Part shown: piece by piece, positions 1,136 through 28,259 of the stretch | Layout: each line of letters begins with the position of its first letter | Numbering within the stretch: the first letter of the stretch is position 1 | NCBI GenBank assembly: GCA_003165795.1 | Contig: PMWW01000187.1 | Span: forward strand, 1 to 37,255 | Direction of reading: 5' to 3' | Source: Acidobacteriaceae bacterium | Lineage (GTDB): Bacteria > Acidobacteriota > Terriglobia > Terriglobales > Acidobacteriaceae | DNA: 37,255 bases | The notes under the pieces: generated by a model | Databases searched by the model: none | Told to the model about the DNA's origin: nothing | The model's input: only the letters and a program-made list of their open reading frames with translations | Translations under genes and position numbers: made by a program

Positions 1136-4100
1136 TCAATGCAGGTCCGGGCCTCGAGAATAGGATTTCGGGCTCTTCAAGAAGTCGTCCTGGCCCTCGG
1201 ATCCGGGAATGTACGTCCAATTCAATATCTCCTGGGTTGCCGCAGCGCCACCGGTCGCCGCTGTGAAGCCGAGGTAAGCGTTAGTTCCGCCGACGATTGA
1301 CGGGATATCCACCGACCATGAAGTTTGGAAGGTTGCCTGCGTGACGGTATCGGTTATCTGCATGACTAACGCAGTCCCGTCATAGCTCATTTGCACGTTG
1401 AATATGTCACCACTGTGCAGGTTGACACCACTGCCGGACATGTCAACTGCCGGCACAGTCGGAGAGGCCCCGTAGATATATAGACCCGTTGAATCGAATC
1501 CTTCTCCCTCGTTGTTGTACAGGTCGAACTTTACGGCAATGCTATTGGGGATCCCCGCTGGGCCCTGTCCCGGGCTCGGCTGGCCATAGCCAAGTCCCGC
1601 TCCGCCGGGACCAAGCGCAGTGGGTCCCACGCTTTGAATGGCAAATGTTAGTCCGTCGGCGGCCGCGTCCGTTAACTGGAAACTGAACGTTTGCGTGAAG
1701 CTTTGAATGTTCATTGGTTGAGAGAACCAGGCGCTGGTGAATTCACCGATTCCACCATCCGTCAGGCGAAGGCGCGTTCCATTCAGAGTAGCTCCTCCAT
1801 TGAGCGTCAGTCCCGTGGACTTGAAACCGCTGCCGTAGTCAATGGCTGCGGGAGAGACAAATGACCAGCTGAGAATCTCCTGGATGGCCGTTCCTCCGCC
1901 CGAGGCTCCGGTGAACCCTACATACGCGGAGGTGCCGCCGACGGTGCCGGGAACATCGACTGGCCATGACGTGCTGAACGATTGCTGCGTGTAGACATCG
2001 ATGACGGTCATAGCGAGATTGACCCCGTCATAGGTCATATGTACGTGGAAGATATCGCTGCTGCGTAGATTAATTCCGCTTCGCGTCATATCCACTGCGG
2101 GTATTGTCGGAGAGGCACCGTTCAAGTAAAGGCCGGTAGAGTTTGTCCCCTCGCCCAGGTTGTTGTAAATGTCGAACTTGACGGCAACACTTTCGGGTAT
2201 GCCCAGTTGTCCACCGGGGCTGGTTGCGCCATAGCCAAGGCCAGCGCCGCCAAAGCCCATGGCCGTGGTCCCATTGTTCTGGATGGCGAAGGTAATTCCG
2301 TCCGCGTCGGGATTGGTTAGCTGGAAGCTGAAATCCTGGGTGAAGGCCTGAACGTTAAGCGGTGTCGAGTACCACGCACTGGCTTTTTCGGAAGTCCCAC
2401 CGTCCGTTAGTTGCAGACGTGAGCCGTTGTAGACGGCGTTGCCGTTCAGGGTCAAATTGTTTGAGCTGAATCCACCGCCGTAGTTGACGCCGCCAGGCTC
2501 GAAGATCCAGTTGAGTACGTCCTGCACGGCCGTGGCTCCGCCTGAGGCGCCCGTAAATCCTATGTAGGCTGTGGTTCCGGCAACCATGGTGGGGATGTCA
2601 ATCGTCCATGATGTGCTGAAGACTTGGTGAGTGACCGTATCCGTAATGGTCATGCTCAAGGTTGTGCCGTCGTAGGTCATATGCACTTGGAATATGTCCC
2701 CACTGTGTAGGTTCACGCCACTGCCGGTCATGTCAATGGCAGGTATCGTGGGGGAGTTTCCGTTGGTGTACAAGCCGGTAGAGTCGGGACCCTCACCAAA
2801 GTTGTTGTACAAGTCGAACTTCACGGCAATACTGGTAGGTATGCCCAGGGCTCCGCTGGGACTCTGAGCGCCATAGCCCAAACCAGCGCCGCCGGGACCA
2901 AGCGCCGTGGATCCCAAGTTCTGAATTACAAAAGCCATTCCATCGCCAATCGGGTTGGTCAATTGAAAACTGAAATCCTGGGTAAAACTTTGAATGCCAA
3001 CCGGCGTGGGATACCAGACGCTGCCACTCTCGCCGGTGCCGCCGTCCGTCAGTCGCACCCGCGTGCCGTTGATCTTGGCAGTCCCGTCGAGCACCAGTTG
3101 CTGGAAACCGGTGCCGAAGTTCAGCGAGCCTCCGCTGCCGGTGGTGATGGTGTAAAGCGACGGAGCCACACTGCTGTTGTTGTATCCCGAGGCCACAGCC
3201 ATGGCTTTGATCGTCGAAGTCTGGCTTACCGGGATCGGGCTGCTATAGATCGGAGAAGAAGTGGTCGGTGTCGCTCCGTCGGTTGTATAGTAGATCGTCG
3301 CACCGGGAGTAGTGTCTTCAAGGGTGACCAGCTGCTGCATTGTATAGGTGCCGCCGTCTGGCGAGAAGCTGGGCATCGCGGCCGGCTGCTCTCCGCGGAG
3401 CAAACCGTAGACGCTAACCTGCCGCACCGCGCCTACGTAGACTTTGCCGTTCGCGATGGTGGGCACCGCGAACTTCACTACTGCTCCTGGATTGTCGCGC
3501 GGTTCGTTGTCGGTGCTGGCATAAAGCAGATTGCCGAGATTGGTCGCGTCGTAGGCATATAAAGCCTCGTAACCATCATTTAGTGCCGCTGCCGTTTGTA
3601 ATATCCAGATAATGCCATTACTCGTACCGTTGGCCGATACACTCGGTGTAGCCCCGGGCCATCCTAGACCTGACAGCGATTCGGAAGTTGGTGAGGTTGA
3701 TAGCAAACCGTTATTCAGGGCAAATGCCTTGAGCGTATCGTTGGCGCCGCCAAAGTATACATAATTGTTCCAGTAGGCCGGCATTGAATAGAGGCCTTCT
3801 ATCTGGCCGGTGATGTTTTGCACGATCTGGGAATTATTGTTGGGGTTGAAATGCCCCATGTTGTCCCGGTCGACGACGTAGATGCTTCCTTCCTTTCCTG
3901 CCTCCACTAACTCATGAGGATGGTTACCCGGCTGGTCGGGCAGGAGCAATGCTCCACCCGAGGCCACGTCGACATCGCCTACGTCGAGCGTGCCCTCATC
4001 ATAAGGGGTGAAATAGTCGACCAGGTTGAGGGCGCCTCCGCTCAACGTGAGCTTGACTATACTGTCGCCAAAGTCTGTGGGATTACCTGATGATTCGAAG

Positions 4101-5020
4101 GTGCCATTTCCGGTGGGAACAAAAACGTTACCGCTCGCATCCGCCGCAACTCCGGCGCCGCTCATCCATATTCCCCCGGCCCGCCCATTGGGGGTCGTCA
4201 CCCAAACGCCCTGCTGGGTTAGGGCGGTCTTGTCATAGGCCATGACCCAGCCGTGGTAGGGATCGGTATCGCAGTTGGATGACCAGGCAAGATAAACGTC
4301 GCCGTTGTTCAGCAATAATCCTGGCCGGTTCAAGTGCTGCACCGGATCAAAGGTGATGATCCCGCCCGAGCCGCCCTCTCCCGTACCCGGATAGGTTGCC
4401 TGAATGGTTACTGGTCCTCCCAGTTTCTCCGCGCCCGTGGTTATATCAAGCGCGTGCAGGCGATGGAAAAACTGGCCATTTTCCTTGGTTTCGGCCAACA
4501 CGTAGATCGTATTTGTGGTGACATCGATGACCGGCGTACTGGTAATGCCAACCTCAGGCGCTATGGCGCCACAACCCATTAGGTCGTTGTCCGATATGGT
4601 AGTGATGCCGTTTCCGGGATTGATAAAGCTGGTGTGCCAGAGCGGCACTGAGTTTCCTCCCGTGTCACTGTCTGCGTCCAGTGCGTAAACGCTGTCGTGC
4701 TCCGTCGCTATGTAGAGTACGTTGTGCACACCCTTTCCTGGGATGGTTAGATTCGGTACATAGAGCGATTGCGCATATACGTAACCGTCGACTGCGACGG
4801 AAAACATCTTGCCAAACTGTCCAGAACTGACGTTCGAGCTTGTGAGAATGGTCTCATTGAGGTTCTGTCCGCTACGATAATTGTCATTGTGCTGGGTAGT
4901 TACCTGAACTTGGGCGGACATGGTTCCGCATAGCAACAGCAGCAATAACAGGGCACCCGTAAGGAGCAGGTTAGCACGGTATGCTCCGAAAGCGGTTGGA
5001 CGAGAAATCCTCGAGCTCAA
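1136..5020 (-). CDS. Secreted beta-propeller / HEX-C / triple L-type lectin protein
   Basis: The 1294-residue product starts at TTG 5020-5018, chosen because AAGGAG lies 8 bases upstream. Residues about 15-36 are a signal peptide ending near SAQ. Residues about 37-545 resemble a PQQ-like beta-propeller, with recurring VLYIATEHDSVYALDA-like blades and paired TPVID and TPSVSANGTSNGIIW motifs. Residues about 550-625 match the chitobiase/beta-hexosaminidase C-terminal type (ATIYYTTDGATPT, then TIKAMAVASGY). Three homologous L-type-lectin-like domains follow at about 632-843, 843-1060 and 1060-1280. Each has a DG-(M/I/L)-(A/T)F-(V/A)IQN strand, a GGAGLGYG loop and an AVKFD-YNN metal-loop motif. 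No PQQ-dehydrogenase catalytic set was recognised, so a binding or structural role is more likely than an enzyme. It is the last gene of the minus-strand EPS run and is related to the proteins at 22132-23907 and 26580-28259. Ligand unknown; EPS is an inference. Confidence 0.85.
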   Translation of the reverse strand: MSSRISRPTAFGAYRANLLLTGALLLLLLLCGTMSAQVQVTTQHNDNYRSGQNLNETILTSSNVSSGQFGKMFSVAVDGYVYAQSLYVPNLTIPGKGVHNVLYIATEHDSVYALDADSDTGGNSVPLWHTSFINPGNGITTISDNDLMGCGAIAPEVGITSTPVIDVTTNTIYVLAETKENGQFFHRLHALDITTGAEKLGGPVTIQATYPGTGEGGSGGIITFDPVQHLNRPGLLLNNGDVYLAWSSNCDTDPYHGWVMAYDKTALTQQGVWVTTPNGRAGGIWMSGAGVAADASGNVFVPTGNGTFESSGNPTDFGDSIVKLTLSGGALNLVDYFTPYDEGTLDVGDVDVASGGALLLPDQPGNHPHELVEAGKEGSIYVVDRDNMGHFNPNNNSQIVQNITGQIEGLYSMPAYWNNYVYFGGANDTLKAFALNNGLLSTSPTSESLSGLGWPGATPSVSANGTSNGIIWILQTAAALNDGYEALYAYDATNLGNLLYASTDNEPRDNPGAVVKFAVPTIANGKVYVGAVRQVSVYGLLRGEQPAAMPSFSPDGGTYTMQQLVTLEDTTPGATIYYTTDGATPTTSSPIYSSPIPVSQTSTIKAMAVASGYNNSSVAPSLYTITTGSGGSLNFGTGFQQLVLDGTAKINGTRVRLTDGGTGESGSVWYPTPVGIQSFTQDFSFQLTNPIGDGMAFVIQNLGSTALGPGGAGLGYGAQSPSGALGIPTSIAVKFDLYNNFGEGPDSTGLYTNGNSPTIPAIDMTGSGVNLHSGDIFQVHMTYDGTTLSMTITDTVTHQVFSTSWTIDIPTMVAGTTAYIGFTGASGGATAVQDVLNWIFEPGGVNYGGGFSSNNLTLNGNAVYNGSRLQLTDGGTSEKASAWYSTPLNVQAFTQDFSFQLTNPDADGITFAIQNNGTTAMGFGGAGLGYGATSPGGQLGIPESVAVKFDIYNNLGEGTNSTGLYLNGASPTIPAVDMTRSGINLRSSDIFHVHMTYDGVNLAMTVIDVYTQQSFSTSWPVDVPGTVGGTSAYVGFTGASGGGTAIQEILSWSFVSPAAIDYGSGFKSTGLTLNGGATLNGTRLRLTDGGIGEFTSAWFSQPMNIQSFTQTFSFQLTDAAADGLTFAIQSVGPTALGPGGAGLGYGQPSPGQGPAGIPNSIAVKFDLYNNEGEGFDSTGLYIYGASPTVPAVDMSGSGVNLHSGDIFNVQMSYDGTALVMQITDTVTQATFQTSWSVDIPSIVGGTNAYLGFTAATGGAAATQEILNWTYIPGSEGQDDFLKSPKSYSRGPDLH

Positions 5021-5028
5021 GGGTAGAT

Positions 5029-5185: not shown

Positions 5186-6013
5186 CTAGATGGCTACCAG
5201 AAGGGCCTCTAAATTGGTCGCGAAATGCTTCAAAGGTGTATGTTCACACAAGAAACGGTCCATGGGCTCTAGCGCTTTGTCAAAGGAAATCGGCACCGAA
5301 TTCTTCGGAAGGAGTTGTCCGTACGAGGTGCTTGCCAGCTGAAACTTGGCGCTGTTCGCAAGCCGAAGAAGCCGCCGCTTATTGTAAAGGCGGTCATGAT
5401 AGCCGATCCCGCGGAGACGGGCCAAGGCCTGGGTCCACGACAAAAAGTAGGGAAGAAAGGTCACGTATACGATCCCTCCCGGTTTCAGAACTCGCCGTAT
5501 TTCATGCAGAGATGCGAGGTCGGATTGCACATGCTCCAGCACCCCAAAACTGACCACGCAGTCAAACTCCTGGTCACGGAAAGGCAGGTCGATCGAGTGG
5601 CGAAGGGGGGTGACCGCGATCCCTCTGGCCTGGACGATCGGAGCTTCCTGTCCGAACATTGTCGTGTCGTCGATTGCTCTGTCAACATCACAGCTCGTGA
5701 CATCAAATCCACGATTTTGTAGCAGGTAGGTAATGTGGCCTTTGCCACACCCCCAATCGAGCACCTTGATCTGCCCCGTAGGGACGCTTTGGTAATCGTT
5801 CAGAATGGCAGAAAGGAATGCGACCTGGCGACCATAAACAGCCTGCGCACTATTGGCCAGAAATTGATGGGAAGGCGTCGTCCGCGCAACTTGCGACAAG
5901 AAATCGTCAGCGACAACCGGAGCGCTCAAAACTGAGCGATACTTGCCGGCTAGCTGGGCTACGGTCACAGTGGCCTTCTCGTCAGGCAGCGTGCTATATG
6001 ACTGCGGCGGCAT
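5186..6013 (-). CDS. Class I SAM-dependent methyltransferase (EPS locus)
   Basis: The product is 275 residues from ATG 6013. A TTG six codons upstream (6031) keeps the frame open, and neither start has a strong ribosome binding site. The Rossmann-fold SAM motif is clear (VLDWGCGKGHITYLL), followed by an acidic residue after the second strand (TSCDVD). Later come a Methyltransf_11-type VVSFGVLEHV segment and RRVLKPGGIVYVTF. No signal peptide or membrane segment is seen, so it should be cytoplasmic. It lies between the GH28-like gene (143-base gap upstream from 6175) and the propeller/lectin gene (165-base gap). The context suggests methylation of a sugar or lipid-linked precursor, but the sequence does not reveal the acceptor. 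Family very likely, substrate unknown. Confidence 0.85.
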   Translation of the reverse strand: MPPQSYSTLPDEKATVTVAQLAGKYRSVLSAPVVADDFLSQVARTTPSHQFLANSAQAVYGRQVAFLSAILNDYQSVPTGQIKVLDWGCGKGHITYLLQNRGFDVTSCDVDRAIDDTTMFGQEAPIVQARGIAVTPLRHSIDLPFRDQEFDCVVSFGVLEHVQSDLASLHEIRRVLKPGGIVYVTFLPYFLSWTQALARLRGIGYHDRLYNKRRLLRLANSAKFQLASTSYGQLLPKNSVPISFDKALEPMDRFLCEHTPLKHFATNLEALLVAI

Positions 6014-6174
6014 TATCGTACCCGGTGTCAATACTCTTGTGAAACGAATAATCGCGATGGTTCTAGACGCACGATCTCATGTTGCTTGGTCATTTCAGTT
6101 CCTGCCAAACGCCACCTTGCGGGACCGCTTGTTGTAAGTGAGTGGATTCGTAGACTCCATTCCGTAGCCGGGGT

Positions 6175-7776
6175 TTAGGGTAATCCCACTATTGCGCTGG
6201 CGAACTTTTCTTCTACAGCTGAATTAGATTTGTCGAGGGGTTTACCATTAACGACAATGTTTTCTAATTTGACATCTTCAATGTCGCTTTCGTCGCTCGC
6301 CCCTTGTAGTTGAATACGCAGCTTGGGATTCTGCGCCGACGTTGTCACTTGGGTGTTGGAGAAGAGGACCCCGCGGACCTTGCCTAGCGGCTTTGCCTTA
6401 TCGGCTGCGGATTCCCAATCTGACGGCCGGATATACACGAAGATCCCTTTGCTTTCGCCGCTATAGTCGTAAAGATTGCCTGTACGGTCGATACGGTTGC
6501 CTTCGAAACGGATGTTGCTCACCGTACCACTGCCCGCAAGGTAGATGCCTTCCGTGGCTCCGCGCGCCAAGTCGCGGATCACATCATTGTCGATGAAAGT
6601 GACCGTGCTGATGTCGGCTCCGACCTCGGTTCCGATTTTCATCGCGGAACCAGTCTCGCTCCAGAGTCGATTTCCCCGCACCACCACATTCTTCACTTGA
6701 TCGCCCGCAGTAGCTATAGTACCGCTACGGATTTTAGACTTGATAACGATCACATCGTCCACGGTGCGAATAAAACAACCCCGCACGGTCACGTCACGAC
6801 TGCTATAGATATCGATCCCATCCGAATTGGCCCGGTACCCGAGTATCTTCAAGTTCGTAACCGATACCCGGTCGGAGTTCGAGATCGGCATGAACCAGCT
6901 CCCCGAATTTTTCAGTATAACGCCTTCCATGCTGATGTCTTGTCCCTCGATAGACAGCAAAAACTTGCCGAGGCTCGGCGTGCCATCGAGAATGCCGCGA
7001 CCGCGGAAGTGGATATTCGCCCCGTATAGTTTGATCGCCGGTTCGGTGTACAACTTCGATGTGTACCCCATTAAAGTGGAATTTACCGAAGCCGCGCCTT
7101 GACGAACCACGCTCCTGACCACCGCTCCCCCGGCAATATAAACGGTCTGACCATCGCGGACCACCAAATTGTCGACCGTGTGGATCCCGGGGCCAAAATA
7201 GAAAATGGTCTTGCCCTGGGGCACTTTCAGATCGTTCAGCGCGTGAGTTCCGGGAGCAAAGTACAGAACGTTCGCATCCTGAGGCGTGGGCACACTGGGC
7301 TCGATGGGATTGACGAAGATATGCAGCGTGCGAACGATCTGATGGTTCACTTCCAAGGTCAGGTTCTGAGGCCCATTTACAGAAAACCGAATAGTGTTGC
7401 CTTGGATCTTCAGCGGACCGGTAGACGAGGCGGGCAGGAATCGCGCGGCGGCAACCGCACAATTGCAAGTCACCGTCACGTCGACACTACCATCTGCATC
7501 GAAGTAAGCAAAGGCCGCTTCATCAAACTTAACGCCGTTTTGTGACTTGTCGTCCACCGCATTAATCCGGAGGGTCTTGTCCTCCGGCGCCACTTGAAGC
7601 TGATACGCAGGAACGTCCCGGCCTTCGACCTGTACCTTGTAGGCGCTGGAAAGCGGTTCCCCAGGGGGTGCAGGATAGATTGTCAACTTGGTCGCCGCCA
7701 TGGACGGCGACCCCAGAAGTAATACGACACTGAGAACGAAACCGCCGAGTAACGAGAACAACCCAATCTTTCTCAT
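6175..7776 (-). CDS. Secreted right-handed beta-helix protein, GH28-like
   Basis: The product is 533 residues from ATG 7776. An in-frame extension to 7854 exists, but the 7776 start puts the signal peptide (MRKIGLFSLLGGFVLSVVLL) at the N terminus. Residues about 30-170 are a beta-sandwich-like region. From about residue 170 a parallel beta-helix begins, with the FYFGPGIHTVDNL and VYIAGGAVVRS entry strands of GH28/GH49-type enzymes. NSDGID (about 317-322) and VDDVIVIKS (about 339-347) match GH28 motifs carrying catalytic aspartates. The usual Gly-His-Gly motif is replaced by SAMKIGTEVGAD, so activity on polygalacturonan is doubtful. In an EPS cluster such proteins are often periplasmic polysaccharide hydrolases or lyases that trim the polymer. 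It sits 171 bases after the Wzy-like gene. Fold confident, reaction inferred. Confidence 0.75.
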   Translation of the reverse strand: MRKIGLFSLLGGFVLSVVLLLGSPSMAATKLTIYPAPPGEPLSSAYKVQVEGRDVPAYQLQVAPEDKTLRINAVDDKSQNGVKFDEAAFAYFDADGSVDVTVTCNCAVAAARFLPASSTGPLKIQGNTIRFSVNGPQNLTLEVNHQIVRTLHIFVNPIEPSVPTPQDANVLYFAPGTHALNDLKVPQGKTIFYFGPGIHTVDNLVVRDGQTVYIAGGAVVRSVVRQGAASVNSTLMGYTSKLYTEPAIKLYGANIHFRGRGILDGTPSLGKFLLSIEGQDISMEGVILKNSGSWFMPISNSDRVSVTNLKILGYRANSDGIDIYSSRDVTVRGCFIRTVDDVIVIKSKIRSGTIATAGDQVKNVVVRGNRLWSETGSAMKIGTEVGADISTVTFIDNDVIRDLARGATEGIYLAGSGTVSNIRFEGNRIDRTGNLYDYSGESKGIFVYIRPSDWESAADKAKPLGKVRGVLFSNTQVTTSAQNPKLRIQLQGASDESDIEDVKLENIVVNGKPLDKSNSAVEEKFASAIVGLP

Positions 7777-7947
7777 AGACAGATGATAACTCCCAAGAGT
7801 ATTTGCAACAACCTTAATCCGATAGATGCGGTCAGCAGGTGTCCGCCACAACAAACAGAAAATACAGCGTCAGCGTTTCCTCTCTCGTGACCCAACTATC
7901 CAGGAAGTCAGCCTTCTCTTCATCCGGCGATATTCGGCCCCCAATGG

Positions 7948-9264
7948 TTAATATGCGGGGATTCCGGGCTCTGCTGCGGAGTACTTACTTAGAGAGGTTT
8001 GAGGGGTTTCATATCGCAAGCAGAGTGACTCATAAATTGCTAGACCAAGCACATCCAAAACCAGGGGAAGCAGTTTGTTTTCAAATAGACTGTTCATTCC
8101 AAACCAGAATAGTATGCAAAATGCAAACCAGGGATACAACACAATGCCAAGCGGCCTTCCCAATTTGACCGACCGCCATACTACACCGCAGAGTAGTCCT
8201 TCAAAAAACACGAAGAATGGGGCCAGCCAGCCAATGTCCGCAAAGATATAGCCGAATGCCCCCCCCCAGATAGCGTTTTCCGTAAGGCCGGCTGGCCCCA
8301 TTGCGCGAAATTCCGATTGCCAGTACTCCATGAAGCTCGGCCAGCGCAAGATGTCCCTAAAAGGGACCACCATGTTAAGCATGTTGTTATAACCGAGGAA
8401 ACTAAAAAGATAGATACCACGTCCGCCATACGGATACCGTAGGCGGCCACTCAGCAATGCCGCGAGTCTGTTGTAAGAGGCAATGGTATATGCAAATACG
8501 TCCTTGGTTAGGTCCGTCGTTCCTCTAACGAATGAGCCCAGAAGGAATAGCACAAGTACGCTTGAGGCAAATATGACGAAGAACTTGACAAGGAAAGCGC
8601 CCTGTCTCTCTGCCCGAAAACTCTTCCTCAGCAAATAGATTATTGCGACACCTATAATCACGGGCATTAACTCACCGCGTACCAGTTTGAGGATCGTGGA
8701 AAGGATTACGGACGCTGTCGCCAGATATTGCGCTATCTTGACCAGGCGGCGCTGCCGGCCTTGCAGGTTCAGTTGGTCGCAGCGCCAGGTCGCCCACCAC
8801 ACTATGCCGATCAAATATATGCCTGCCATGCCCAACGCGGACTGAAATTGCAGCTCGGTTTTTAGCTCGGCACCACCCTGCTCCAGAAAAAGCCGGAAGA
8901 GGTCCGGGGCGCTGCGTATGATGATAATGTTCGAGATCACAGAAAACACAAGACCAAACCCTAAAGGAATTAAAAGGAAGGTCACTGGTGACAGGCGGCA
9001 CACCAGGGTTTCATCGTTCAGGCCAGCTACGGGGAGGAGTAGATCGAGGAGCCAAACTCCCAAAAGAAAAGAAATTACACACAACGAATAGAAGGCTAAT
9101 GCCGACATGTCCATGAAGATGTAATCTGGTTCGTCCATGTACGAGACATATGCGGCAGGTGGAAATGACCAGGCAAGCAAAAAAATCGCATACGACACCA
9201 ACGCCAGTGCGTATGGCGACACCGCCTTCGTCAGGAATGCTGTTTGCCCGTCGCGTCGCACCAT
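7948..9264 (-). CDS. Wzy-like O-antigen/EPS repeat-unit polymerase
   Basis: This 438-residue protein is very hydrophobic, with about 10-12 predicted membrane segments (for example LALVSYAIFLLAWSF, FYSLCVISFLLGVWLLDLLL, LIPLGFGLVFSVISNIIII). It has a long extracytoplasmic region at about 260-340 containing NRLAALLSGRLRYPYGGRG and a late GYIFADIGWLAPFFVFFEGLLCG segment. This layout fits Wzy and oligosaccharide repeat-unit polymerases, which join flipped undecaprenyl-linked repeats on the periplasmic face. These polymerases are poorly conserved, so the call rests on topology and on neighbouring GT2, Wzx and Wzz genes. The ATG at 9264 lies 9 bases after the GT2 stop, indicating one transcript. 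Alternative: another multi-pass EPS membrane protein. Confidence 0.7.
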   Translation of the reverse strand: MVRRDGQTAFLTKAVSPYALALVSYAIFLLAWSFPPAAYVSYMDEPDYIFMDMSALAFYSLCVISFLLGVWLLDLLLPVAGLNDETLVCRLSPVTFLLIPLGFGLVFSVISNIIIIRSAPDLFRLFLEQGGAELKTELQFQSALGMAGIYLIGIVWWATWRCDQLNLQGRQRRLVKIAQYLATASVILSTILKLVRGELMPVIIGVAIIYLLRKSFRAERQGAFLVKFFVIFASSVLVLFLLGSFVRGTTDLTKDVFAYTIASYNRLAALLSGRLRYPYGGRGIYLFSFLGYNNMLNMVVPFRDILRWPSFMEYWQSEFRAMGPAGLTENAIWGGAFGYIFADIGWLAPFFVFFEGLLCGVVWRSVKLGRPLGIVLYPWFAFCILFWFGMNSLFENKLLPLVLDVLGLAIYESLCLRYETPQTSLSKYSAAEPGIPAY

Positions 9265-9273
9265 GGATGCCGC

Positions 9274-10329
9274 CTAGAAAGATCCTGACTGTCTTATGTT
9301 ACCAAACTGCGGGCTGCGGCCAAGGAGGCTACGGATGCTCCGGGTAAGGGAATCGCAGTTGCGCGCCCCAAGCGCATATCCCCCAAGACAGTAGAGGTGG
9401 AACATTGGGTAGCGGGAGAACCCCATCGTTCCCAGTGATCGATATAGTTCTATAAACTTGTTTAACGGAAGGTCCAGCTGCTCCCTTATATAAGGATAGA
9501 AGTAATTCGCATAGTCATGCATGACTTCGTCGACGACATCAATGCCCTTCGTACTTCTCAATTCCTTAATAATAGATAGTATGCCGGCGATCATGGTAAC
9601 GCGGGTGAGAGCAGTAATTGTACCGGGGGTATGTTTGCCTTGCTCCGCGGGGCTGTTCCCGAATTCATATGGTTCGCTGGCACGGCACAGGATCAATACC
9701 TTCGGGGTGAAAACCGCATTCTTGAAGGCCAGGATGTTCGCGGTTAAATGCATCTGATAGTACAGACAACCATCAAACTTGTCAGTAGCGGCGTCAACTG
9801 CACTTTCACGATGTACAACGTAGCCTGATATCACGCCCGACCGTCGAAAGCATGTCTTGATAGCCTCAGGCCCGGCAGAGAAAAAGCGTTCTTCATTGAA
9901 ATATCGAATCTCCTGATTTATGTCACCTGGTTCACGATCGAACCAAGCGTAGCTTCTCAATACCACGCCGACGTTCTCGTAGCGCGTCAGAAGGTCGGCG
10001 ACGGTGGTCAGCGCTCCGGGACACATCAAGTCGTCGTTGCCCATAAAAAAGCAGTATTCACCGTTGGCTTTTTCAACAAGGTTGCGGATATTAGCGTCGT
10101 AGCCAAGGTTATTTTCATTTTCGTAGTAATAGACTGTATTGGGATAGCGATCGGCGAATTCGTGGGCGGCGGAAGCGATGGCCGATCTCTCGCGCGACTT
10201 GTCTTCGCAGATCACCACATTGAAGTTGCTATAGTCCTGCGCAAAAATGGAGGTCAATAATGGAGGCAGAAGTCGAGCGCGATTGTAAGCAGGGATGCAA
10301 ATTGAGAACTTCGGCCGGTGCGGAGTCAT
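9274..10329 (-). CDS. GT2 family glycosyltransferase
   Basis: The product is 351 residues from ATG 10329. This start overlaps the TGA of the upstream acyltransferase gene as ATGA and has GGGAG 5 bases upstream; an ATG four codons earlier is less favoured. The GT-A fold is plain: FSICIPAYNRARLLPPLLTS at the N terminus, VVICEDKSRER, NNLGYDANIRNLVEKA, and a DxD-like YCFFMGNDDLMCPGAL. The C-terminal 200 residues are hydrophilic with no clear membrane anchor, so it should act at the cytoplasmic face on a lipid-linked acceptor. It is tightly packed between an acyltransferase and the Wzy-like polymerase. Donor and acceptor sugars cannot be read from the sequence. Confidence 0.88.
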   Translation of the reverse strand: MTPHRPKFSICIPAYNRARLLPPLLTSIFAQDYSNFNVVICEDKSRERSAIASAAHEFADRYPNTVYYYENENNLGYDANIRNLVEKANGEYCFFMGNDDLMCPGALTTVADLLTRYENVGVVLRSYAWFDREPGDINQEIRYFNEERFFSAGPEAIKTCFRRSGVISGYVVHRESAVDAATDKFDGCLYYQMHLTANILAFKNAVFTPKVLILCRASEPYEFGNSPAEQGKHTPGTITALTRVTMIAGILSIIKELRSTKGIDVVDEVMHDYANYFYPYIREQLDLPLNKFIELYRSLGTMGFSRYPMFHLYCLGGYALGARNCDSLTRSIRSLLGRSPQFGNIRQSGSF

Positions 10330-11846: not shown

Positions 11847-11948
11847 GGAGCAGGGCCTTAGTATACTGCATCGCGAAAAGTGAGTTAATCGATAGCGGGC
11901 AGTGGCGCGCACGCTTGGAGGTGGACCTGAGCTTGAAGAATCTTGCCG

Positions 11949-18540: not shown

Positions 18541-19634
18541 TGAACACAGTTGTGATCGACGCGCGGTGTTTGTTGACGGGAATTGGGACCTATACTCTGA
18601 ACCTGGTTCGTGGCCTGAAGTCCTTGGGTGAGATTCAGGTCCGCGCACTAACTTTGTCGTCGCACCGAGATGCTTTGGACCCTTATTGCGACCAAGTGGA
18701 CGTGGTGAGCGCTCCCATCTACTCCGTTCGCGAGCAGTTCCAGATTCCGTGGGCAGCGCGGCGATGCGATTTGCTGCACGTGCCGCATTACAACACGCCG
18801 CTTTTTCACCGCGGCACGATGCTGGTGTCCATTCACGACCTGACGCACATTCTGGACGACACGTTTCGCGCCACCTGGAAGAGCCGGATTTACGCTCAGC
18901 CGATGCTTCGATTGGCGGCGGCCCATGCTGATCATATCTTTACTGTATCGGAGTATTCGAAGCGCCAAATTCTGGAGCACCTGGGGGCGGCCGCCGACAA
19001 AGTGAGCGTGGTGTACAACGGCGTGAGTCCGCAATTTTTTCCCGAGCTCCACGATGAGTCGAAAGCCAGGGCTGGCCGTTGCTACGGTTTCATGGGGCCC
19101 TACGTCCTCTATGTCGGAAACTTAAAAGCGCACAAGAATGTCGCAGGACTGATTCGTGCGTTTGCCATAGTTCGCTCGCGCCACGAGATCGAACATACGC
19201 TTTTGATCATCGGAGGAGATGCGTCAGGCCGCTCCGAGCTTAGGACGTTGGCGGCGGAGTGTGGGCTCAACGGGTCAGCGGTGTTTGTGCCGGCTGTTCC
19301 CGGCGAACTGCTGCGCACCGTTTATTCCGGTGCTGACCTTACCGTGCTTCCGTCGTTCGAAGAAGGCTTCGGTCTTCCTATTGTGGAGTCGATGGCATGC
19401 GGCACACCCGTGGCCTGTTCCTCCGCTGCGTCGATGCCTGAGGTCGGCGGCGGTGCCGCGGAGTATTTTGACCCGCGGGATGTAGAGTCAATCGCAAGCT
19501 CTCTGGAAAAAGTCTTGTTTTCGGAGGAGCGCTGGCAGAGAATGCGGAAACTGGGAATCGAACAAGCTGCGCGATTTACTTGGGAATCGTGCGCTCGTAA
19601 GCACTACGACGTCTATCGAGGTTTCCTGAATTAA
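18540..19634 (+). CDS. GT4 family glycosyltransferase, first of pair
   Basis: The product is 364 residues from ATG 18540. It has the two Rossmann-like domains of GT-B enzymes. The N-terminal half contains VVIDARCLLTGIGTYTLNLVRGL and CDLLHVPHYNTPLF, with a HDLTHI segment. The middle has the VGNLKAHKNVAGLIRAFA motif typical of family-4 donor domains. The C-terminal half has PSFEEGFGLPIVESMACGTPVACS, giving the Glu-x7-Glu donor-phosphate signature, and MPEVGGGAAEYFDP. No membrane segment is seen; it should act at the cytoplasmic face on a lipid-linked EPS intermediate. Only one base separates its stop from the next glycosyltransferase start, so the two are surely co-translated. Mannosyl- or similar hexosyltransferase is likely, but the sugar is not determinable. 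Confidence 0.9.
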   Translation: MNTVVIDARCLLTGIGTYTLNLVRGLKSLGEIQVRALTLSSHRDALDPYCDQVDVVSAPIYSVREQFQIPWAARRCDLLHVPHYNTPLFHRGTMLVSIHDLTHILDDTFRATWKSRIYAQPMLRLAAAHADHIFTVSEYSKRQILEHLGAAADKVSVVYNGVSPQFFPELHDESKARAGRCYGFMGPYVLYVGNLKAHKNVAGLIRAFAIVRSRHEIEHTLLIIGGDASGRSELRTLAAECGLNGSAVFVPAVPGELLRTVYSGADLTVLPSFEEGFGLPIVESMACGTPVACSSAASMPEVGGGAAEYFDPRDVESIASSLEKVLFSEERWQRMRKLGIEQAARFTWESCARKHYDVYRGFLN

Positions 19635-19635: not shown

Positions 19636-20814
19636 ATGGACAAGCTCTCAAGTTACGGAAGCCAGCCGCTCAGGGTCACCTTAGTTCATGACTGGTTGAC
19701 GGGCATGCGAGGTGGGGAAAAGGTATTGGAACAACTCTGCAAGCGCTTCCCGGAAGCTCCGCTGTGGACCCTGCTCTATGTTCCGGGCACAGTGAGCGAC
19801 ACGATAACCGACCGGGTCATTCACACCAGCCCCATGCAGCGACTTCCCTGGGTGCGATCAAAATATCGTCACTACCTGCCGCTATTTCCGTTGATGGCGG
19901 AACTGACGAGGGTGAGCGATGCCGATGTAGTTATTTCCTCGTCGCATGCGGTCGCCAAGGCTATGGTCAAGAAGGACGAGGGAGGCCGTCCGCTGCATAT
20001 CTGCTATATCCATACGCCGATGAGGTATGTGTGGGACCGTTTCGACGATTATTTTGGTCCTCGCAAAGTGGGAACGATTCTTTCCAGTTCCGTGTTCCGG
20101 CCGGTGGCGAAAATGCTCCAGTGGTATGACCTGCGGACGGTGAATCGGGTGGACAAGTTCGTTGCAAACTCGCGGTTTGTGGCAGAACGCGTACGACGGC
20201 TCTACGGCCGTGAAGCCGAGGTCCTGCCGCCTCCAGTAGACGTGCAGCGCTTTGCTCGAGTTACCAGGTCGCCCGAGGATTGGTATCTGATGGTGACCGC
20301 GCTCGCTCCCTACAAACGTGTCGATGAAGCCATTTGCGCGTGCGCAGCCTTAGGGCGAAAGCTCAAGATCGTCGGCTCAGGCCCGGAGCGAAAACGTCTG
20401 CAAGTCCTGGCCCGCGATCGCGGAGGTGAGGTTGAATTTCTTGGGTTTGTGCAGGACGAAGAATTAGCCGAGTGGTATGGACGCGCTAAAGGTCTCTTAT
20501 TTCCCGGCATTGAAGACTTCGGCATCGCGCCAGTTGAAGCAATCGCTGCCGGTTGTCCGGTGGTCGCTTTGAAGCAGGGTGGAATTCTGGATTCTATGAC
20601 CGACAGGACGGCTGTCCTGTATTCCGAGGAGTCGGTTGAGGGACTGGTGCAAGCCATCCGCGATTTTGAACTCCGTAGCTTTGATGAGCGTGAGCTTCGC
20701 CTTCGGGCGGCACAATTTACGCCGGAAAGGTTCTTAGCAGGTTTCGAAGAGATCTTGGCAGAGGTCCTACCGGGGATGGCCCTCCGAGATTTGGCGTTTG
20801 GTACTTACAACTGA
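19636..20814 (+). CDS. GT4 family glycosyltransferase, second of pair
   Basis: The product is 392 residues from ATG 19636, one base after the preceding stop. The N-terminal domain begins RVTLVHDWLTGMRGGEKVLEQL, a signature of a distinct GT4 subgroup, and includes the CYIHTPMRYVWDRFDDYF motif. The donor domain starts at about residue 215 (YLMVTALAPYKRVDEAI), then KIVGSGPERKRL and FPGIEDFGIAPVEAIAAGCPVVA with the Glu-x7-Glu pair. Cytoplasmic, acting on a lipid-linked acceptor. The pair of different GT4 enzymes, together with the GT2 gene and the initiating transferase, suggests a repeat unit of at least four sugars if all act in one pathway. That count is an inference. Confidence 0.9.
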   Translation: MDKLSSYGSQPLRVTLVHDWLTGMRGGEKVLEQLCKRFPEAPLWTLLYVPGTVSDTITDRVIHTSPMQRLPWVRSKYRHYLPLFPLMAELTRVSDADVVISSSHAVAKAMVKKDEGGRPLHICYIHTPMRYVWDRFDDYFGPRKVGTILSSSVFRPVAKMLQWYDLRTVNRVDKFVANSRFVAERVRRLYGREAEVLPPPVDVQRFARVTRSPEDWYLMVTALAPYKRVDEAICACAALGRKLKIVGSGPERKRLQVLARDRGGEVEFLGFVQDEELAEWYGRAKGLLFPGIEDFGIAPVEAIAAGCPVVALKQGGILDSMTDRTAVLYSEESVEGLVQAIRDFELRSFDERELRLRAAQFTPERFLAGFEEILAEVLPGMALRDLAFGTYN

Positions 20815-22131: not shown

Positions 22132-23907
22132 ATGGCAGGTATGATTCAGAGCTTTGGTTGCGTATGCCAGGCTTTATCACTCACCCAGCGAGTTGCCAGA
22201 GCGGCGACCATACTGCTTTTGCTGGTCTCCTTGGCCAGCTTGGTTCAGGCACAAGTCACGACACCGCATAGTGATAGCTTCAGTTCAGGGCAGAGTATCC
22301 AGGGAACTATTTTAAGTCCGGGGGACGTCGGTGTTCGCCGATTCGGCAAGATCACGCCCTACCTAGGTGATGGGGATATTTATGGTCTGCCGCTCTACAT
22401 GGCCAAAATGACCGCGCCAGAGACGGCCCTTCACAATGTGGTCTACATGGGTACTGGGCACGATAGTGTTGACCCATCCGAGGCTAATACGGAAGCCGGA
22501 CCAAGTCCGTCAGGGCACAAAAATTTCATCCACCCTGCAGCAGAAACTACCATTGTTTCTACCCAAACTGTTTCTACACAAGATGCTAACTCCCATGACG
22601 CCGTATTACCACTCGAAGGATCGATAAATTACGGCAGCGGATTTACCTCCAAAGGTCTGGTCCTCAATCTGAACGCAGTGCTTAACGGAGCCCGCCTTCG
22701 GCTAACGGATGGGGGGATCGGCGAGATTGCCAGTGCATGGTATACAAACAAGGTTAACATTCAATCCTTCGCCCAACAGTTCAGCTTCCAGATAACGAAC
22801 CCCAGCGCCGATGGTATGACGTTCGCTATCCAAAACGTGGAGACCACGGCCTTCGGACCGGGGGGAGGGGGTCTTGGCTATGGCGCAGGTACGCCAGGAG
22901 GAAATGGGGGAATACCAACTAGCGTTGCGGTAAAGTTCGATCTCTACAACAACGATGGCGAGGGTATAGACTCCACCGGGCTCTATGTTAACGGAGCCTC
23001 GCCTACCATCCCCGCGATCGACATGACGAGCAGCGGTGTAAACCTGCACAGCGGGGACGTCTTCGATGTGTGGATGACTTACGATGGTACTGCGCTGGCG
23101 ATGCAGATCACCGATACTACGACGCAGGCAACATTTACGACATCCTGGACTATCGATATTCCTGCGACCGTCGGTGGTGATACGGCCTATGTGGGATTCA
23201 CTGGCGCAACCGGCGGTGCTTCGTCTACCCAGGAGGTGCTGAATTGGATGTTTACCTCGCAAGGGGCGGTAGAGTATGGCAGCGGATTCACCTCCAATAA
23301 CCTAGATCTCAACTACTCAGCAACCCTCAATGGAACCCGCCTGGAGCTGACCGATGGGCAAATAGGTGAGATTGCTAGCGCGTGGTATGCCACCCCGGTT
23401 GATGTCCTGGCATTCACCCAGGAATTCAGTTTCCAGCTGACGAATCCCAGGGCTGACGGCATGACCTTCACTATCCAAAATGTCAGCACAAGCGCTACCG
23501 GGCCGGGCGGGGCAGGTCTAGGCTACGGGGCTTCCAGTCCGGGCGGCAATGGCGGAATCAGCAACAGTGTTGCTGTCAAGTTTGACCTCTACAACAATTT
23601 TGGCGAAGGCATCGATTCCACTGGTCTCTATACGGAGGGAGCATCGCCTACGGTACCAGCGATCGATATGAGTAGCAGCGGCGTGAACCTTCATAGTGGC
23701 GATGTATTCAATGTTCGCATGACATATGATGGCACTACGCTATCCATGCGAATTACCGACGCAACTACGCAGGCAACATTCCAGACATCCTGGACCATCA
23801 ATATTCCTTTGACCGTCGGTGCCGGGACCGCATATGTGGGATTCACTGGTGCGACTGGCGGAGACTCGGCAACGCAGGAAATCCTCTCCTGGATTTACAT
23901 TCCGTAA
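22132..23907 (+). CDS. Secreted double L-type lectin protein with relic propeller N terminus
   Basis: The 591-residue product starts at ATG 22132 with AAGGAG 10 bases upstream. A long basic N-tail precedes a signal peptide (ATILLLLVSLASLVQAQ). Residues about 40-135 align by eye with the first propeller segment of the 1136-5020 protein: SGQSIQGTIL against SGQNLNETIL, LHNVVYMGTGHDSV against VHNVLYIATEHDSV, and NFIHP against SFINP. The remaining propeller and the HEX-C domain are absent. A short Ser/Thr/Gln linker leads to two L-type-lectin-like domains at about 164-378 and 380-591, with AVKFDLYNN motifs and GGxGLGYG loops. One blade cannot close a propeller, so the N-terminal part is probably vestigial or an adaptor. 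Role inferred: secreted glycan-binding protein of the EPS matrix. It lies between a methyltransferase and the initiating transferase. Confidence 0.83.
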   Translation: MAGMIQSFGCVCQALSLTQRVARAATILLLLVSLASLVQAQVTTPHSDSFSSGQSIQGTILSPGDVGVRRFGKITPYLGDGDIYGLPLYMAKMTAPETALHNVVYMGTGHDSVDPSEANTEAGPSPSGHKNFIHPAAETTIVSTQTVSTQDANSHDAVLPLEGSINYGSGFTSKGLVLNLNAVLNGARLRLTDGGIGEIASAWYTNKVNIQSFAQQFSFQITNPSADGMTFAIQNVETTAFGPGGGGLGYGAGTPGGNGGIPTSVAVKFDLYNNDGEGIDSTGLYVNGASPTIPAIDMTSSGVNLHSGDVFDVWMTYDGTALAMQITDTTTQATFTTSWTIDIPATVGGDTAYVGFTGATGGASSTQEVLNWMFTSQGAVEYGSGFTSNNLDLNYSATLNGTRLELTDGQIGEIASAWYATPVDVLAFTQEFSFQLTNPRADGMTFTIQNVSTSATGPGGAGLGYGASSPGGNGGISNSVAVKFDLYNNFGEGIDSTGLYTEGASPTVPAIDMSSSGVNLHSGDVFNVRMTYDGTTLSMRITDATTQATFQTSWTINIPLTVGAGTAYVGFTGATGGDSATQEILSWIYIP

Positions 23908-24515: not shown

Positions 24516-25904
24516 GTGAGCTTGCGTCTAAACTCTTATCGCTTCTATATACGATTGTGGTGCTATCTGCTGCCGCTTATGGCGTTTGGAGTGGCGGGTT
24601 ATGCGCGGTTCGGGGTGTTTCGCATGTCGTTGGCGAAGGGAGATTACGACCCCCGCTTCTACCTTGTAGTACTTTTGTTAACCACCCTGGTCTGGGTGAT
24701 CGCGGCGGAGAACTACCGGCTGTGCGACATCGAGGAATTGTTTCAGGAGTACACCGGCATCCATAAAGCAGTATCAGCTTGCGCGACTACGTATGTTGTC
24801 CTGCTGTGCGTGCTGTTTTTTTACCGGCAGCAGAATTTTTCGCGCATTTTCTTCGCGGCTAGTGCGCTCGCATTGCTGGTGGGGACGGTGGTGACGCGGA
24901 CAACGTTCCGCCTACTCTTGCGGGGCTGGCGGCGTCAGCGGCGTCCGCTTCGAGTTCTGGTTGTCGGCGCCGATGCCTATGCCCGCCGGGTTGCAGCGCG
25001 ATTGGGCCGCATACCGTTCGCCGCTTCCGAAGTAGTCGCCCACATTCGTATTGCGGATGAGGAGGTGGCCGTCACTGACTTGCCGGTCTTCGAATTGCGT
25101 GACATCGCAAAGGGAATTGGGTTGCCCTTCGATGAAGTTGTGATTGCAGTTCCTGCCCCGCGGCTGTCTATTCTGTCGACGCTGTTCCGCTCGCTCGAAC
25201 CGTTGTGTGCTCCGGTCCGGGCCGTCATCGATATCGGCGGCGTACCTCTGCTTCGTGAAAGGCTGTTTCAGTTCGGCGATATGCAAATGCTTGACCTGGC
25301 GACGACGCCTGGCGAATCGCCCACCTACTTTGTTTTGAAGCGGATCTTCGATGTCGTGTTCTCGCTCCTGGTCGTCCTCTTGTTGGGTCCCCTGATGTTG
25401 GTGATTGCTGCCGTTATTAAGGCCACGTCCTCCGGGCCAGTGCTTTTCCGTCAGGAACGGGTGGGGCTTAACGGAGAGCACTTCACCATGTACAAGTTTC
25501 GTACCATGAAGGTGGCAGCATCGTCAGAGAGCGAGACGCGATGGACGACCGCCAACGATCCCCGGCGAACGGCTGTCGGCAGTTTCTTGCGAAGTACCAG
25601 TATGGACGAACTACCGCAGTTCTTTAACGTGTTGAAGGGCAAAATGAGTGTAGTCGGCCCCCGTCCGGAGCGTCCTTATTTCGTAAAGAAGTTTCTGGAA
25701 GAGATTTTGCATTACAACACCCGGCATCGCCTGAAAGTTGGAATCACAGGTTGGGCCCAGGTCAACGGATGGCGCGGCGATACCTCGATCGCCAAGCGAT
25801 TTGAGCACGATTTGTACTATCTGCAAAATTGGAGCTTCTGGCTTGACATGCGGATCGTATGTTTGACGGCATGGTCCGGTTTGTTCGGCAAGAATGCGTA
25901 TTGA
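24516..25904 (+). CDS. Polyprenyl-phosphate sugar phosphotransferase, WbaP/WcaJ type
   Basis: The 462-residue product starts at GTG 24516, supported by AGGGGA 7 bases upstream. Four N-terminal membrane segments lie within about residues 10-130. A central CoA-binding-like Rossmann region follows (LRVLVVGADAYARRVAARLG). The C-terminal bacterial sugar transferase domain begins at KRIFDVVFSLLVVLLLGPLMLVIA, the re-entrant helix. Then come GPVLFRQERVGLNGEHFTMYKFRTMK, a DELPQFFNVLKGKMSVVGPRPE catalytic segment and the KVGITGWAQVNGWRGDT motif. This is the enzyme that starts EPS assembly by transferring a sugar-1-phosphate (glucose or galactose in characterised relatives) to undecaprenyl phosphate at the inner membrane. 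It ends in the usual LFGKNAY. Its presence supports reading the locus as a Wzx/Wzy pathway. Confidence 0.93.
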   Translation: MSLRLNSYRFYIRLWCYLLPLMAFGVAGYARFGVFRMSLAKGDYDPRFYLVVLLLTTLVWVIAAENYRLCDIEELFQEYTGIHKAVSACATTYVVLLCVLFFYRQQNFSRIFFAASALALLVGTVVTRTTFRLLLRGWRRQRRPLRVLVVGADAYARRVAARLGRIPFAASEVVAHIRIADEEVAVTDLPVFELRDIAKGIGLPFDEVVIAVPAPRLSILSTLFRSLEPLCAPVRAVIDIGGVPLLRERLFQFGDMQMLDLATTPGESPTYFVLKRIFDVVFSLLVVLLLGPLMLVIAAVIKATSSGPVLFRQERVGLNGEHFTMYKFRTMKVAASSESETRWTTANDPRRTAVGSFLRSTSMDELPQFFNVLKGKMSVVGPRPERPYFVKKFLEEILHYNTRHRLKVGITGWAQVNGWRGDTSIAKRFEHDLYYLQNWSFWLDMRIVCLTAWSGLFGKNAY

Positions 25905-26579: not shown

Positions 26580-28259
26580 GTGCGAAATCCAGCCAATCTC
26601 ATGTTGTCCGCTCTGCTGTTCATCGGTTCGGTAACGCCTTATGGCGTAGCGGCAACCGCTCCCGCTTCCGCCGCCGCATCGAGTACCGCCCCAGCAAGTT
26701 CAGCGCAATCCCCTCCGATTAATCCAGGCCTCAGCATCCCTTATCCTACCGACGTCCTCACTTATCACTACAACCCTTACCGGTTGGGCACCAACTCCCA
26801 GGAAACAACTCTGACCGTCAGCAACGTCAACTCTGCTACGTTCGGAAAGGTTGCTTTCTATACTGTGGACGGTAAAGTGGACGCGCAGCCCCTCTATGTG
26901 AACAAGCAATTCATTGGCGGCAGCCTGAATAACATACTGTACGTCGTTACCGAAAACGATAGCATTTACGCCTTCGATGCCAGTAGCGGCCGGCAGTATT
27001 GGAAGGTGTCGGCGCTAGGTCAGGGCGAGACCACCAGCGACGATCACAACTGCACCAACATCTCACCCCAGATCGGGATCACCGACACCCCGGTGATCGA
27101 CAAGGCGGGCGGTCCGAACGGCGCCATCTACTTCGTGGCCATGACCAAAGACTCCTCGGGCAACTACCATCAGCGTCTGCATGCCCTTGACCTGACTACC
27201 GGTGCGGAGCTGTTCGGCGGTCCGACAGAGATTCAGGCCACCTATCCCGGCACCGGTGACGGCAGCCAAAATGGCCAGGTTATCTTTGCTCCCGGACAAT
27301 TCGCCGAGCGTGCCGGACTATTGGAATACGGCATCACCATCTACATTGCGTTCGCCTCGCACTGCGACGTCCGTCCCTACACCGGCTGGCTGATGGCATA
27401 CAACGCGCGTACCCTGGCGCAAAGCTCGGTTCTGGACGTGACTCCCAATGGCAACGAGGGCTCAATCTGGATGAGCGGCAGTGGGCTGGCGTCCGATTCC
27501 TTTGGCAATATCTACTTCCTCGATGCCAACGGCATCTTCGACACTACCTTGAACTCACAAGGTTTTCCCATCAACGGCGATTATGGCAATGCGTTCATGA
27601 AAGTCTCAAGTTCGTCGGGTCAGCTGGCCGTCGTCGACTACTTCAATATGTACAACACGGTGCAGGAGTCCGATAACGACGAAGATCTGGGTGCGGGCGG
27701 GGCGATGGTGTTGCCCGATCTCTACGACAACAACGGACAGCTTCATCACCTCGCCGTGGGGGCGGGCAAAGATACCAATCTCTACATCGTCGACCGCGAC
27801 AACATGGGGAAGTTTAATCCTAACAATGACAATGCTATCTACCAGGAGATCGATGGCATTTTCCCCTACGGCATCTTTTCCAGTCCAGCGTACTTCAACA
27901 ACAGCGTCTATTACGGCGACGTAGGCGACAATCTGAAAGCATTCGCCATCTCCAACGCTAAGCTCCCGACAACGCCCACCTCGCAGACCATAAACACGTT
28001 CACCTACCCTGGGGCGACGCCCACTATCTCGGCGAGTGGCACTTCCAACGGAATCGTGTGGGCGATCAACAACAGTAATCCGGCGGTGTTGTATGCCTTT
28101 GATGCCACCAATCTTTCGCGTGAATTGTACGATAGCAATCAGGCGGGATCGCGCGACCAGTTTGGCCCGGGCAACAAGTTCATCACCCCCGTGGTCGCCA
28201 ATGGCAAGGTGTTCGTGGGGACGCAAACCGGGGTCGCGGTGTTTGGTCTGTTGCCGTAG
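26580..28259 (+). CDS. Secreted PQQ-like beta-propeller protein without lectin domains
   Basis: The 559-residue product starts at GTG 26580, preceded by a GGGGG-containing site. Residues 1-25 form a signal peptide, followed by an Ala/Ser/Pro-rich linker to about residue 50. The rest matches the propeller of the 1136-5020 protein: NVNSATFGKVAFYTVDGKVDAQPLYV, NNILYVVTENDSIYAFDA, ISPQIGITDTPVID, LHALDLTTGAELFGGP, IQATYPGTGDG, NGNEGSIWMSGSGLASD, YIVDRDNMGKFNPNND, and TISASGTSNGIVWAI. It ends at the last blade (KVFVGTQTGVAVFGLLP), just where the longer relative adds HEX-C and lectin domains. No dehydrogenase active site was recognised. Likely an extracellular or periplasmic binding or structural protein. 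It is convergent with the GT39-like gene, 59 bases away. Confidence 0.82.
   Translation: MRNPANLMLSALLFIGSVTPYGVAATAPASAAASSTAPASSAQSPPINPGLSIPYPTDVLTYHYNPYRLGTNSQETTLTVSNVNSATFGKVAFYTVDGKVDAQPLYVNKQFIGGSLNNILYVVTENDSIYAFDASSGRQYWKVSALGQGETTSDDHNCTNISPQIGITDTPVIDKAGGPNGAIYFVAMTKDSSGNYHQRLHALDLTTGAELFGGPTEIQATYPGTGDGSQNGQVIFAPGQFAERAGLLEYGITIYIAFASHCDVRPYTGWLMAYNARTLAQSSVLDVTPNGNEGSIWMSGSGLASDSFGNIYFLDANGIFDTTLNSQGFPINGDYGNAFMKVSSSSGQLAVVDYFNMYNTVQESDNDEDLGAGGAMVLPDLYDNNGQLHHLAVGAGKDTNLYIVDRDNMGKFNPNNDNAIYQEIDGIFPYGIFSSPAYFNNSVYYGDVGDNLKAFAISNAKLPTTPTSQTINTFTYPGATPTISASGTSNGIVWAINNSNPAVLYAFDATNLSRELYDSNQAGSRDQFGPGNKFITPVVANGKVFVGTQTGVAVFGLLP

Follow-up and report, generated by a model that had tools for sequence, protein, structure and literature searches.

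What do apparently secreted proteins that join a β-propeller to legume-type (L-type) lectin domains do for a bacterium that encodes them among the genes for an exopolysaccharide (EPS)? The question is raised by the 37,255-bp contig PMWW01000187.1 of an Acidobacteriaceae bacterium (GenBank assembly GCA_003165795.1), a member of the Acidobacteriota, which are abundant in soil. This entire contig of a 4.95-Mb genome split over 208 contigs was analysed and is hereafter called ‘the window’. A preliminary description had singled out three open frames in and beside its EPS locus, here called A, B and C, as a set that might bind the polysaccharide, and all three are present at the coordinates given there, with A encoded on the minus strand and the other two on the plus strand. 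Our findings suggest to regard A and B, with a probability of about one half, as secreted multivalent proteins of the EPS matrix which belong to this locus and would bind glycans; C is probably a dispersed paralogue outside the lectin set. The observations on which this reading is based are the domains, the predicted folds, the kept site residues, purifying selection, linkage and a conserved gene order.

Domains of proteins A, B and C

The attribution of L-type lectin domains to two of the proteins proved right: PF00139 is matched three times in A (192.6 bits, E = 1.1e-56) and twice in B (135.6 bits, E = 2.7e-39), in each case above the cut-off of 26.3 bits, and the same holds for PF18483 (178 bits in A, 122.8 bits in B; cut-off 78.3). 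The model of the first lectin domain of A exhibits the legume-lectin jelly-roll fold (predicted local distance difference test, pLDDT, 95.0), and, of its 221 PDB matches at E ≤ 0.001, the best 50 consist of plant lectins and 7elv. The latter, a legume-lectin domain from Methanocaldococcus jannaschii, is the top solved match and nearest solved relative (TM-score 0.77–0.79, 30% identity; E = 6.1e-16 by sequence); its chain is a single domain of ∼207 residues without a propeller, and no paper on this lectin was found.

The domains were scored for Asp-Gly-Asn, which we take to be the sugar-site triad of legume-type lectins. The triad is present in all five lectin domains of the window, and among 54 aligned lectins Asp is kept in 48, Gly in 50 and Asn in 43; a Ca-type Asp is kept in 54/54. 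A Mn site with Glu is a feature of plant legume lectins and not of the whole family, and the aligned lectins do not exhibit this plant-type Glu, with Lys at that position in 52 of the 54 rows. The five window domains share 63–74% identity in protein and 63–72% in DNA, far more than chance would give, with non-synonymous divergence (dN) of 0.19–0.29 and synonymous divergence (dS) of at least 1.7 or saturated; they hence arose by ancient duplication and are subject to purifying selection. At such protein identity and with synonymous sites near saturation, a recent gene conversion between these repeats is unsupported. Inverted-repeat recombination between the lectin repeats of A and B was likewise rejected (DNA identity 63–70%, longest exact run 15 bp, no inverted repeats at a seed of 14 and a length of 25).

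According to its AlphaFold2 model, the N-terminal body of A is an eight-bladed propeller of the PQQ (pyrroloquinoline quinone)/BamB/YxaL kind. YxaL from Bacillus velezensis (PDB 7dxn; Z-score 32.3, 18% identity) and BamB from Escherichia coli (PDB 4xga; Z-score 31.0, 13% identity) are likewise eight-bladed, and neither chain contains lectin domains. The predicted body also conforms to the eight-bladed fold of PQQ-dependent dehydrogenases, and its matches to PQQ alcohol dehydrogenases, together with the GH51-like body of a sister lectin protein near EPS genes in genome G170, would be consistent with an active enzyme, either a PQQ-type dehydrogenase or a polysaccharide-modifying protein, that the lectins merely dock on the EPS. 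We consider this very improbable: the Pfam propeller models remain under their own cut-offs in A and C, PF13360 as well as PF01011 (PQQ-dependent dehydrogenase; 23.2 bits in A and 19.8 bits in C, cut-off 26.7), the NCBIfam dehydrogenase models tested (TIGR03074 and TIGR03075) match C far under their cut-offs and A not at all, and designed propellers, YxaL and BamB fit the model of A equally well or better. The Pfam comparison proposed in the preliminary description thus recovers the lectins and leaves the propellers below threshold. CHB_HEX_C_1 is clearly present in A (E = 1e-24), and a phmmer search of A against the PDB at E ≤ 0.1 returned 7elv/7exo and one hexosaminidase, and nothing else.

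The propellers of A and C are 48–49% identical, and a hidden Markov model (HMM) built from both matches the N-terminus of B (58.8 bits, E = 7.4e-16). Since this match spans positions 13–163 of the 575-position model, B was rightly labelled a ‘relic’. The propeller N-terminus said to be common to the three proteins is hence shared by A and C and survives as a remnant in B, which carries versions of the first two motifs and lacks TPVID. Pfam, the HMM and the models of A bear out the architectures proposed earlier, i.e., propeller, HEX-C and three lectins for A, relic and two lectins for B, and propeller alone for C.

The grouping of the three genes as one set stands for A and B and not for C. 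In a gene tree, C sits apart from A in a clade made up of propeller-only members of the genus, and the row nearest to it is a copy on contig C118 of its own genome (85% over 527 columns). EPS-type matches are absent from the fetched surroundings of the C-related copies L113–L115 and L125–L128, and a C-like propeller-only gene of genome G285 (L228, 7195–9207; 61% to C) adjoins Wzz-Wzy. With C placed in a propeller-only clade and the examined sister copies mostly away from EPS genes, the ‘set of three’ reduces to A and B.

Linkage to the EPS genes

Protein A is encoded last in a minus-strand run of eight genes (acyltransferase-methyltransferase-acyltransferase-GT2-Wzy-GH28-like-methyltransferase-A) whose longest frames overlap or are separated by at most 165 bp, the value found between A and the neighbouring methyltransferase. 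Wzx and Wzz lie beyond this run; next, on the plus strand, come two GT4 genes and one for a methyltransferase, then B, WcaJ and C, around which the gaps measure 328, 608 and 675 bp. As described before, two of the proteins bracket Wzx/Wzy and one lies outside: A and B flank wzy and wzx, and C is located past wcaJ.

Part of this arrangement recurs in a sister species (G006), where the order and strand of the window are kept on contig C299 for a counterpart of A (propeller, CHB and three lectins), for the methyltransferase and for Wzy, with gaps of 122 and 11 bp, and where contig C477 starts within a Wzy fragment and continues with Wzx and Wzz. Among the matches listed, an A2-type lectin, the window-type Wzy and the methyltransferase are found together in two of nine genomes of the genus (G000 and G006), and none of them in the other seven; several of these genomes are incomplete, with G006 being 74% complete. 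A further group of lectins within the genus, set apart from the A2-type, occurs in G002, G003, G004 and on contig C208 of the genome studied here. By eye, its copies from these four genomes (L014, L019, L021, L022) have kinase or transporter genes in their vicinity, those of C208, G002 and G004 also a gene for an RNA-binding protein, and EPS genes are not nearby.

Across the family, A2-type lectins were detected in 65 of 398 genomes (E = 1e-15, among the matches listed, with at most seven candidates scored per genome). Both linkage tests used 23 genomes of few contigs, picked from these 65 by eye and blind to EPS; the few-contig genomes G077, G217 and G380 are outside this sample. In the first test, regions of up to 20 kb were queried with ten EPS-type proteins of the window, of which two acyltransferases and a PMT-like protein are not EPS-specific. 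EPS-type genes were found in 12 of 41 lectin-centred versus 1 of 40 random regions (Fisher P = 9e-4), with matches in 5 of 11 genera and, by body, in 5/22 regions with and 7/19 without a propeller-lectin. These counts are not independent (two regions of G133 share one GT4 gene, and L182 and L177 each include multiple lectin genes), contig ends truncate L153–L156 (11 to 18 kb), the matches in L167, L178 (5e-8) and L182 (6e-6) are weak, and the 40 control regions represent 20 of the 23 genomes, with G133, G235 and G307 contributing none. An earlier form of the test (15/41 versus 1/40) was circular, as some queries came from lectin loci, and was set aside. The second test, in which the distance of 46 lectin genes from the 23 genomes to a match of TIGR03025 or PF01943 was evaluated, yielded 14 genes within 40 kb versus 4.86 expected (P = 1.8e-4).

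Individual loci provide further examples. In G067, the distance from a propeller-lectin gene is 3.5 kb to a Wzy-like gene (by eye, without a Pfam match) and 5.3 kb to WcaJ, G103 has four consecutive propeller-lectin genes on one strand after Wza- and Wzc-looking genes (by eye), GT4 genes and a flippase gene, and lectin genes without a propeller match lie near GT4, GT2 or acyltransferase genes in G147, G170, G133 and on contig C8 of G067. A general link of propeller genes as such to EPS genes is unsupported: 4 of the 92 matches outside the genome studied here (in G014, G022, G039 and G047) are within 20 kb of a TIGR03025 match, by eye, versus an upper-bound expectation of 3.4, and an EPS-type match was found in 2 of 15 propeller-only regions.

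Several observations have to be set against the reading of A and B as matrix proteins of this locus: (i) the marker-distance test at 20 kb yields 5 lectin genes versus 2.58 expected (P = 0.11; P = 0.38 at the genus level) and, at 40 kb by genus, 6/11 versus 3.66 expected (P = 0.095), (ii) 29 of the 41 lectin-centred regions are without an EPS-type match, (iii) in a wider species collection, whose flanks are often cut and for which there is no control set, such a match occurs in 12 of 78 loci (an RHS match not counted), one of these by a methyltransferase alone and one being G006, (iv) six Wzy-bearing loci outside the genus (G134, G285, G260, G066, G313, G103), one of which has a propeller-only gene, are without an adjoining lectin, these having been fetched from the nine Wzy-bearing genomes besides our own, with the loci of G097 and G159 not among them, (v) the same lectin type also occurs on a GH51-like body and on a CotH protein, (vi) WcaJ of G006 is on a 6.2-kb contig, and B and C are not beside it, and (vii) G000 and G006 look nearest kin in one gene tree, so that their common cassette may be a single event. 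The co-occurrence with EPS genes proposed at the outset is thus supported by the region test, the gene order in G006 and the loci of G067 and G103, and not by the strict marker test or by the majority of regions.

The weak strict marker test, the lectin partner lacking at 6/6 fetched Wzy loci outside the genus and the 85% copy of C elsewhere in its own genome would also be expected if variable EPS loci gathered accessory genes and A, B and C were unrelated cargo of a hot spot. The enrichment of 12/41 versus 1/40 with matches in 5 of 11 genera, the order kept in G006 and the purifying selection on the lectin domains argue against such passengers, and we deem this explanation unlikely.

The builds of the lectin family raise another possibility. 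The scan of the species collection yielded 267 confirmed stretches, and the 78 loci kept are mostly from Acidobacteriota, but also from Planctomycetota, Verrucomicrobiota and a few others. The usual build combines a propeller with CHB_HEX repeats and between one and four lectins; in Planctomycetota, propeller-lectin fusions were found in which CHB_HEX was undetected. One protein in EPS surroundings (L107, 1787–7474) combines CHB_HEX repeats and lectins with a body matching GH51 arabinofuranosidases of the PDB (E = 6e-9), a match made on the G170 protein alone. It is thus conceivable that the lectins bind outside glycans only, such as plant litter and fungal or chitin-like polymers, and serve as adhesins or digestive accessories, the nearness to EPS genes reflecting a common cell-surface theme. 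The GH51-like and CotH bodies, an architecture in G013 in which the lectin precedes a second CHB and a CBM6-like tail (by eye), the 29 regions without an EPS-type match and, from the part of PMC10102183 used here, the binding of host glycans by lectin parts and of EPS by the propeller in Vibrio are in line with this view. The conserved placement of A, which closes the wzy run in two species, and the joint presence or absence of lectin and wzy within the genus speak against it, and we hold it to be a serious, if rather doubtful, alternative.

Further members of the family deserve mention. Other large proteins encoded in EPS surroundings, at L106 (408–4709) and L104 (12984–17327), likewise carry lectins and CHB_HEX repeats. 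In G013 (L016, 3–1924 and 5786–8986; by eye), the above propeller-CHB-lectin-CHB protein with a CBM6-like tail is encoded, at a contig end, ∼4 kb from NeuB/PseI- and WbqC-looking genes. Finally, propeller-lectin or lectin genes were found on contigs that bear the label Gammaproteobacteria or Paucimonas (L061, L063, L093), which indicates either a binning error or transfer.

Other features of the window

The features of A, B, C and the EPS locus are collected in Table 1. A second protein of pectin-lyase fold (Pect-lyase_RHGA_epim, Pfam) is encoded at 16250–17614, and it and the GH28-like protein may trim or cut the EPS polymer. An Rfam scan of the window returned nothing at gathering scores, and scans for promoter-like (15 versus 9.9 and 5 versus 7.5 expected) and terminator-like (16 versus 16.0 and 21 versus 14.4 expected) signals were uninformative. 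Downstream of C, a gene at 30687–32048 fuses a 2Fe-2S thioredoxin-like ferredoxin domain to the dimerisation and catalytic domains of an O-methyltransferase and is adjoined by a MerR-type regulator (32320–32865). A short RHS/YD-repeat protein with a very Cys-rich tail (33447–35051) is followed by a second Cys-rich, secreted-looking frame without a Pfam match (35869–36867).

Table 1. Features of genes A, B and C and of the surrounding EPS locus (window coordinates).
Feature	Position	Strand	Evidence or remark
Gene A: propeller, CHB_HEX_C_1 and three L-type lectin domains	1136..5020	-	1294 aa; signal peptide by eye
A, predicted eight-bladed propeller, PQQ/BamB/YxaL type	3383..4915	-	AlphaFold2 pLDDT 91.8; PDB matches
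A, CHB_HEX_C_1 domain (residues 554–618)	3167..3361	-	86.7 bits, cut-off 22
A, lectin domain 1	2483..3127	-	Pfam; model pLDDT 95.0, best PDB match 7elv
A, lectin domain 2 (one Ca-type Asp replaced by Asn)	1841..2482	-	Pfam and alignment
A, lectin domain 3	1205..1840	-	Pfam and alignment
Methyltransferase between wzy and A	5186..6031	-	kept in G006
GH28-like pectin-lyase-fold protein	6175..7854	-	Pfam
Wzy-type polymerase	7948..9264	-	assigned from its appearance and surroundings; no Pfam match
GT2 glycosyltransferase	9274..10341	-	
Hexapeptide acyltransferase	10326..11123	-	
Methyltransferase	11133..11912	-	
Hexapeptide acyltransferase	11949..12719	-	
Wzx-like flippase	12662..14338	+	WZX_like E = 3.7e-6, under cut-off; no Pfam match
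Wzz chain-length protein	14373..15683	-	Pfam
GT4 glycosyltransferase	18540..19634	+	
GT4 glycosyltransferase	19636..20814	+	
Gene B: truncated propeller and two lectin domains	22132..23907	+	591 aa; signal peptide by eye
B, remainder of the propeller (HMM positions 13–163 of 575)	22132..22563	+	HMM match 22129–22563
B, lectin domain 1	22618..23265	+	sequence comparison and alignment
B, lectin domain 2	23266..23904	+	sequence comparison and alignment
WcaJ-type initiating sugar transferase	24516..25904	+	TIGR03023, 416.9 bits, cut-off 410.75
Gene C: propeller only	26580..28259	+	

Known systems and the proposed matrix function

LecB from Pseudomonas aeruginosa is a small lectin of another fold and not a propeller fusion. 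In the portion of PMC6522473 on which we draw, it is described as a lectin of the cell that binds the cell's own EPS, Psl, and stabilises the matrix. RapA2 and RapD from Rhizobium leguminosarum are, within the same limits (PMC5061743, PMC9298526), secreted proteins that act on or bind their own EPS and shape the biofilm matrix; they differ from A and B in having cadherin-like domains and in using type I secretion.

Among known systems, RbmC and Bap1 from Vibrio cholerae would come closest to a working model, with the propeller on the EPS and other domains on outside glycans or surfaces. According to the part of PMC10102183 considered here, both consist of an eight-bladed propeller, which binds EPS, and lectin-like domains, and the gene for RbmC is located between two EPS clusters and that of its paralogue Bap1 outside the clusters. 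Like these two, A appears to be secreted, as judged from a signal peptide assigned by eye, and joins propeller and lectin in one protein; a gene beside an EPS cluster is likewise encountered in the window, G006, G067 and G103. However, the lectin fold of RbmC/Bap1 is a β-prism (PMC10102183, same part) and that of A and B is L-type, and the A family has one to four lectins, usually with CHB_HEX linkers, and EPS binding that is predicted only. A Bap1 crystal structure exists (ibid.), and the phmmer search of A against the PDB (E 0.1) detected no match to Bap1 by sequence; the fold matches listed for the A propeller likewise do not include Bap1, which has no bearing either way. Since a sequence link to Bap1 was not detected and the lectin folds differ, the resemblance would be a likeness of function and not membership.

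A matrix-lectin system of this sort was not known to the preliminary description; a protein or lectin holding the cell's own EPS has already been described in other bacteria, as seen from the portions of PMC6522473 and PMC10102183 used here. The kind is known in Vibrio, Pseudomonas and Rhizobium, and its variant with another lectin fold is, relative to these portions, new to us. A described EPS-matrix lectin of Acidobacteriota was not found in the open PMC literature.

Under our preferred reading of A and B as matrix proteins, the WcaJ/GT/Wzx/Wzy set would build the EPS, and A, probably co-transcribed with wzy, would exit the cell via its signal peptide and presumably be exported past the outer membrane. 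The three lectin domains of A and the two of B would then bind sugar chains at the Asp-Gly-Asn site, the choice of glycan being our inference, and could cross-link the EPS or tie it to outside glycans, with the propeller possibly acting as a second binding body in the manner of a ‘double-sided tape’. B would represent a lectin-only derivative that arose after loss of most of the propeller, and C is probably incidental here, being a paralogue from a dispersed propeller-only family.

It is tempting to speculate, if only tentatively, that Acidobacteriaceae possess a ‘double-sided tape’ matrix system, apparently independent of that of Vibrio, in which propeller-lectin and GH51-like-lectin proteins would form a shuffled family passed on together with certain Wzx/Wzy EPS loci, each member being matched to the sugar of its locus and the number of lectins and the body changing with the EPS. 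A propeller-lectin locus (L052), whose gene content matches that of the G067 contig, is present in a named strain, Paracidobacterium acidisoli 4G-K13 (NZ_QVQT02000006.1). Whether the double-sided-tape design is general is asked in the part of PMC10102183 used here, and the genes described above are concrete candidates. By analogy with the known systems, A and B may hold the slime of their bacterium together or stick it to surfaces.

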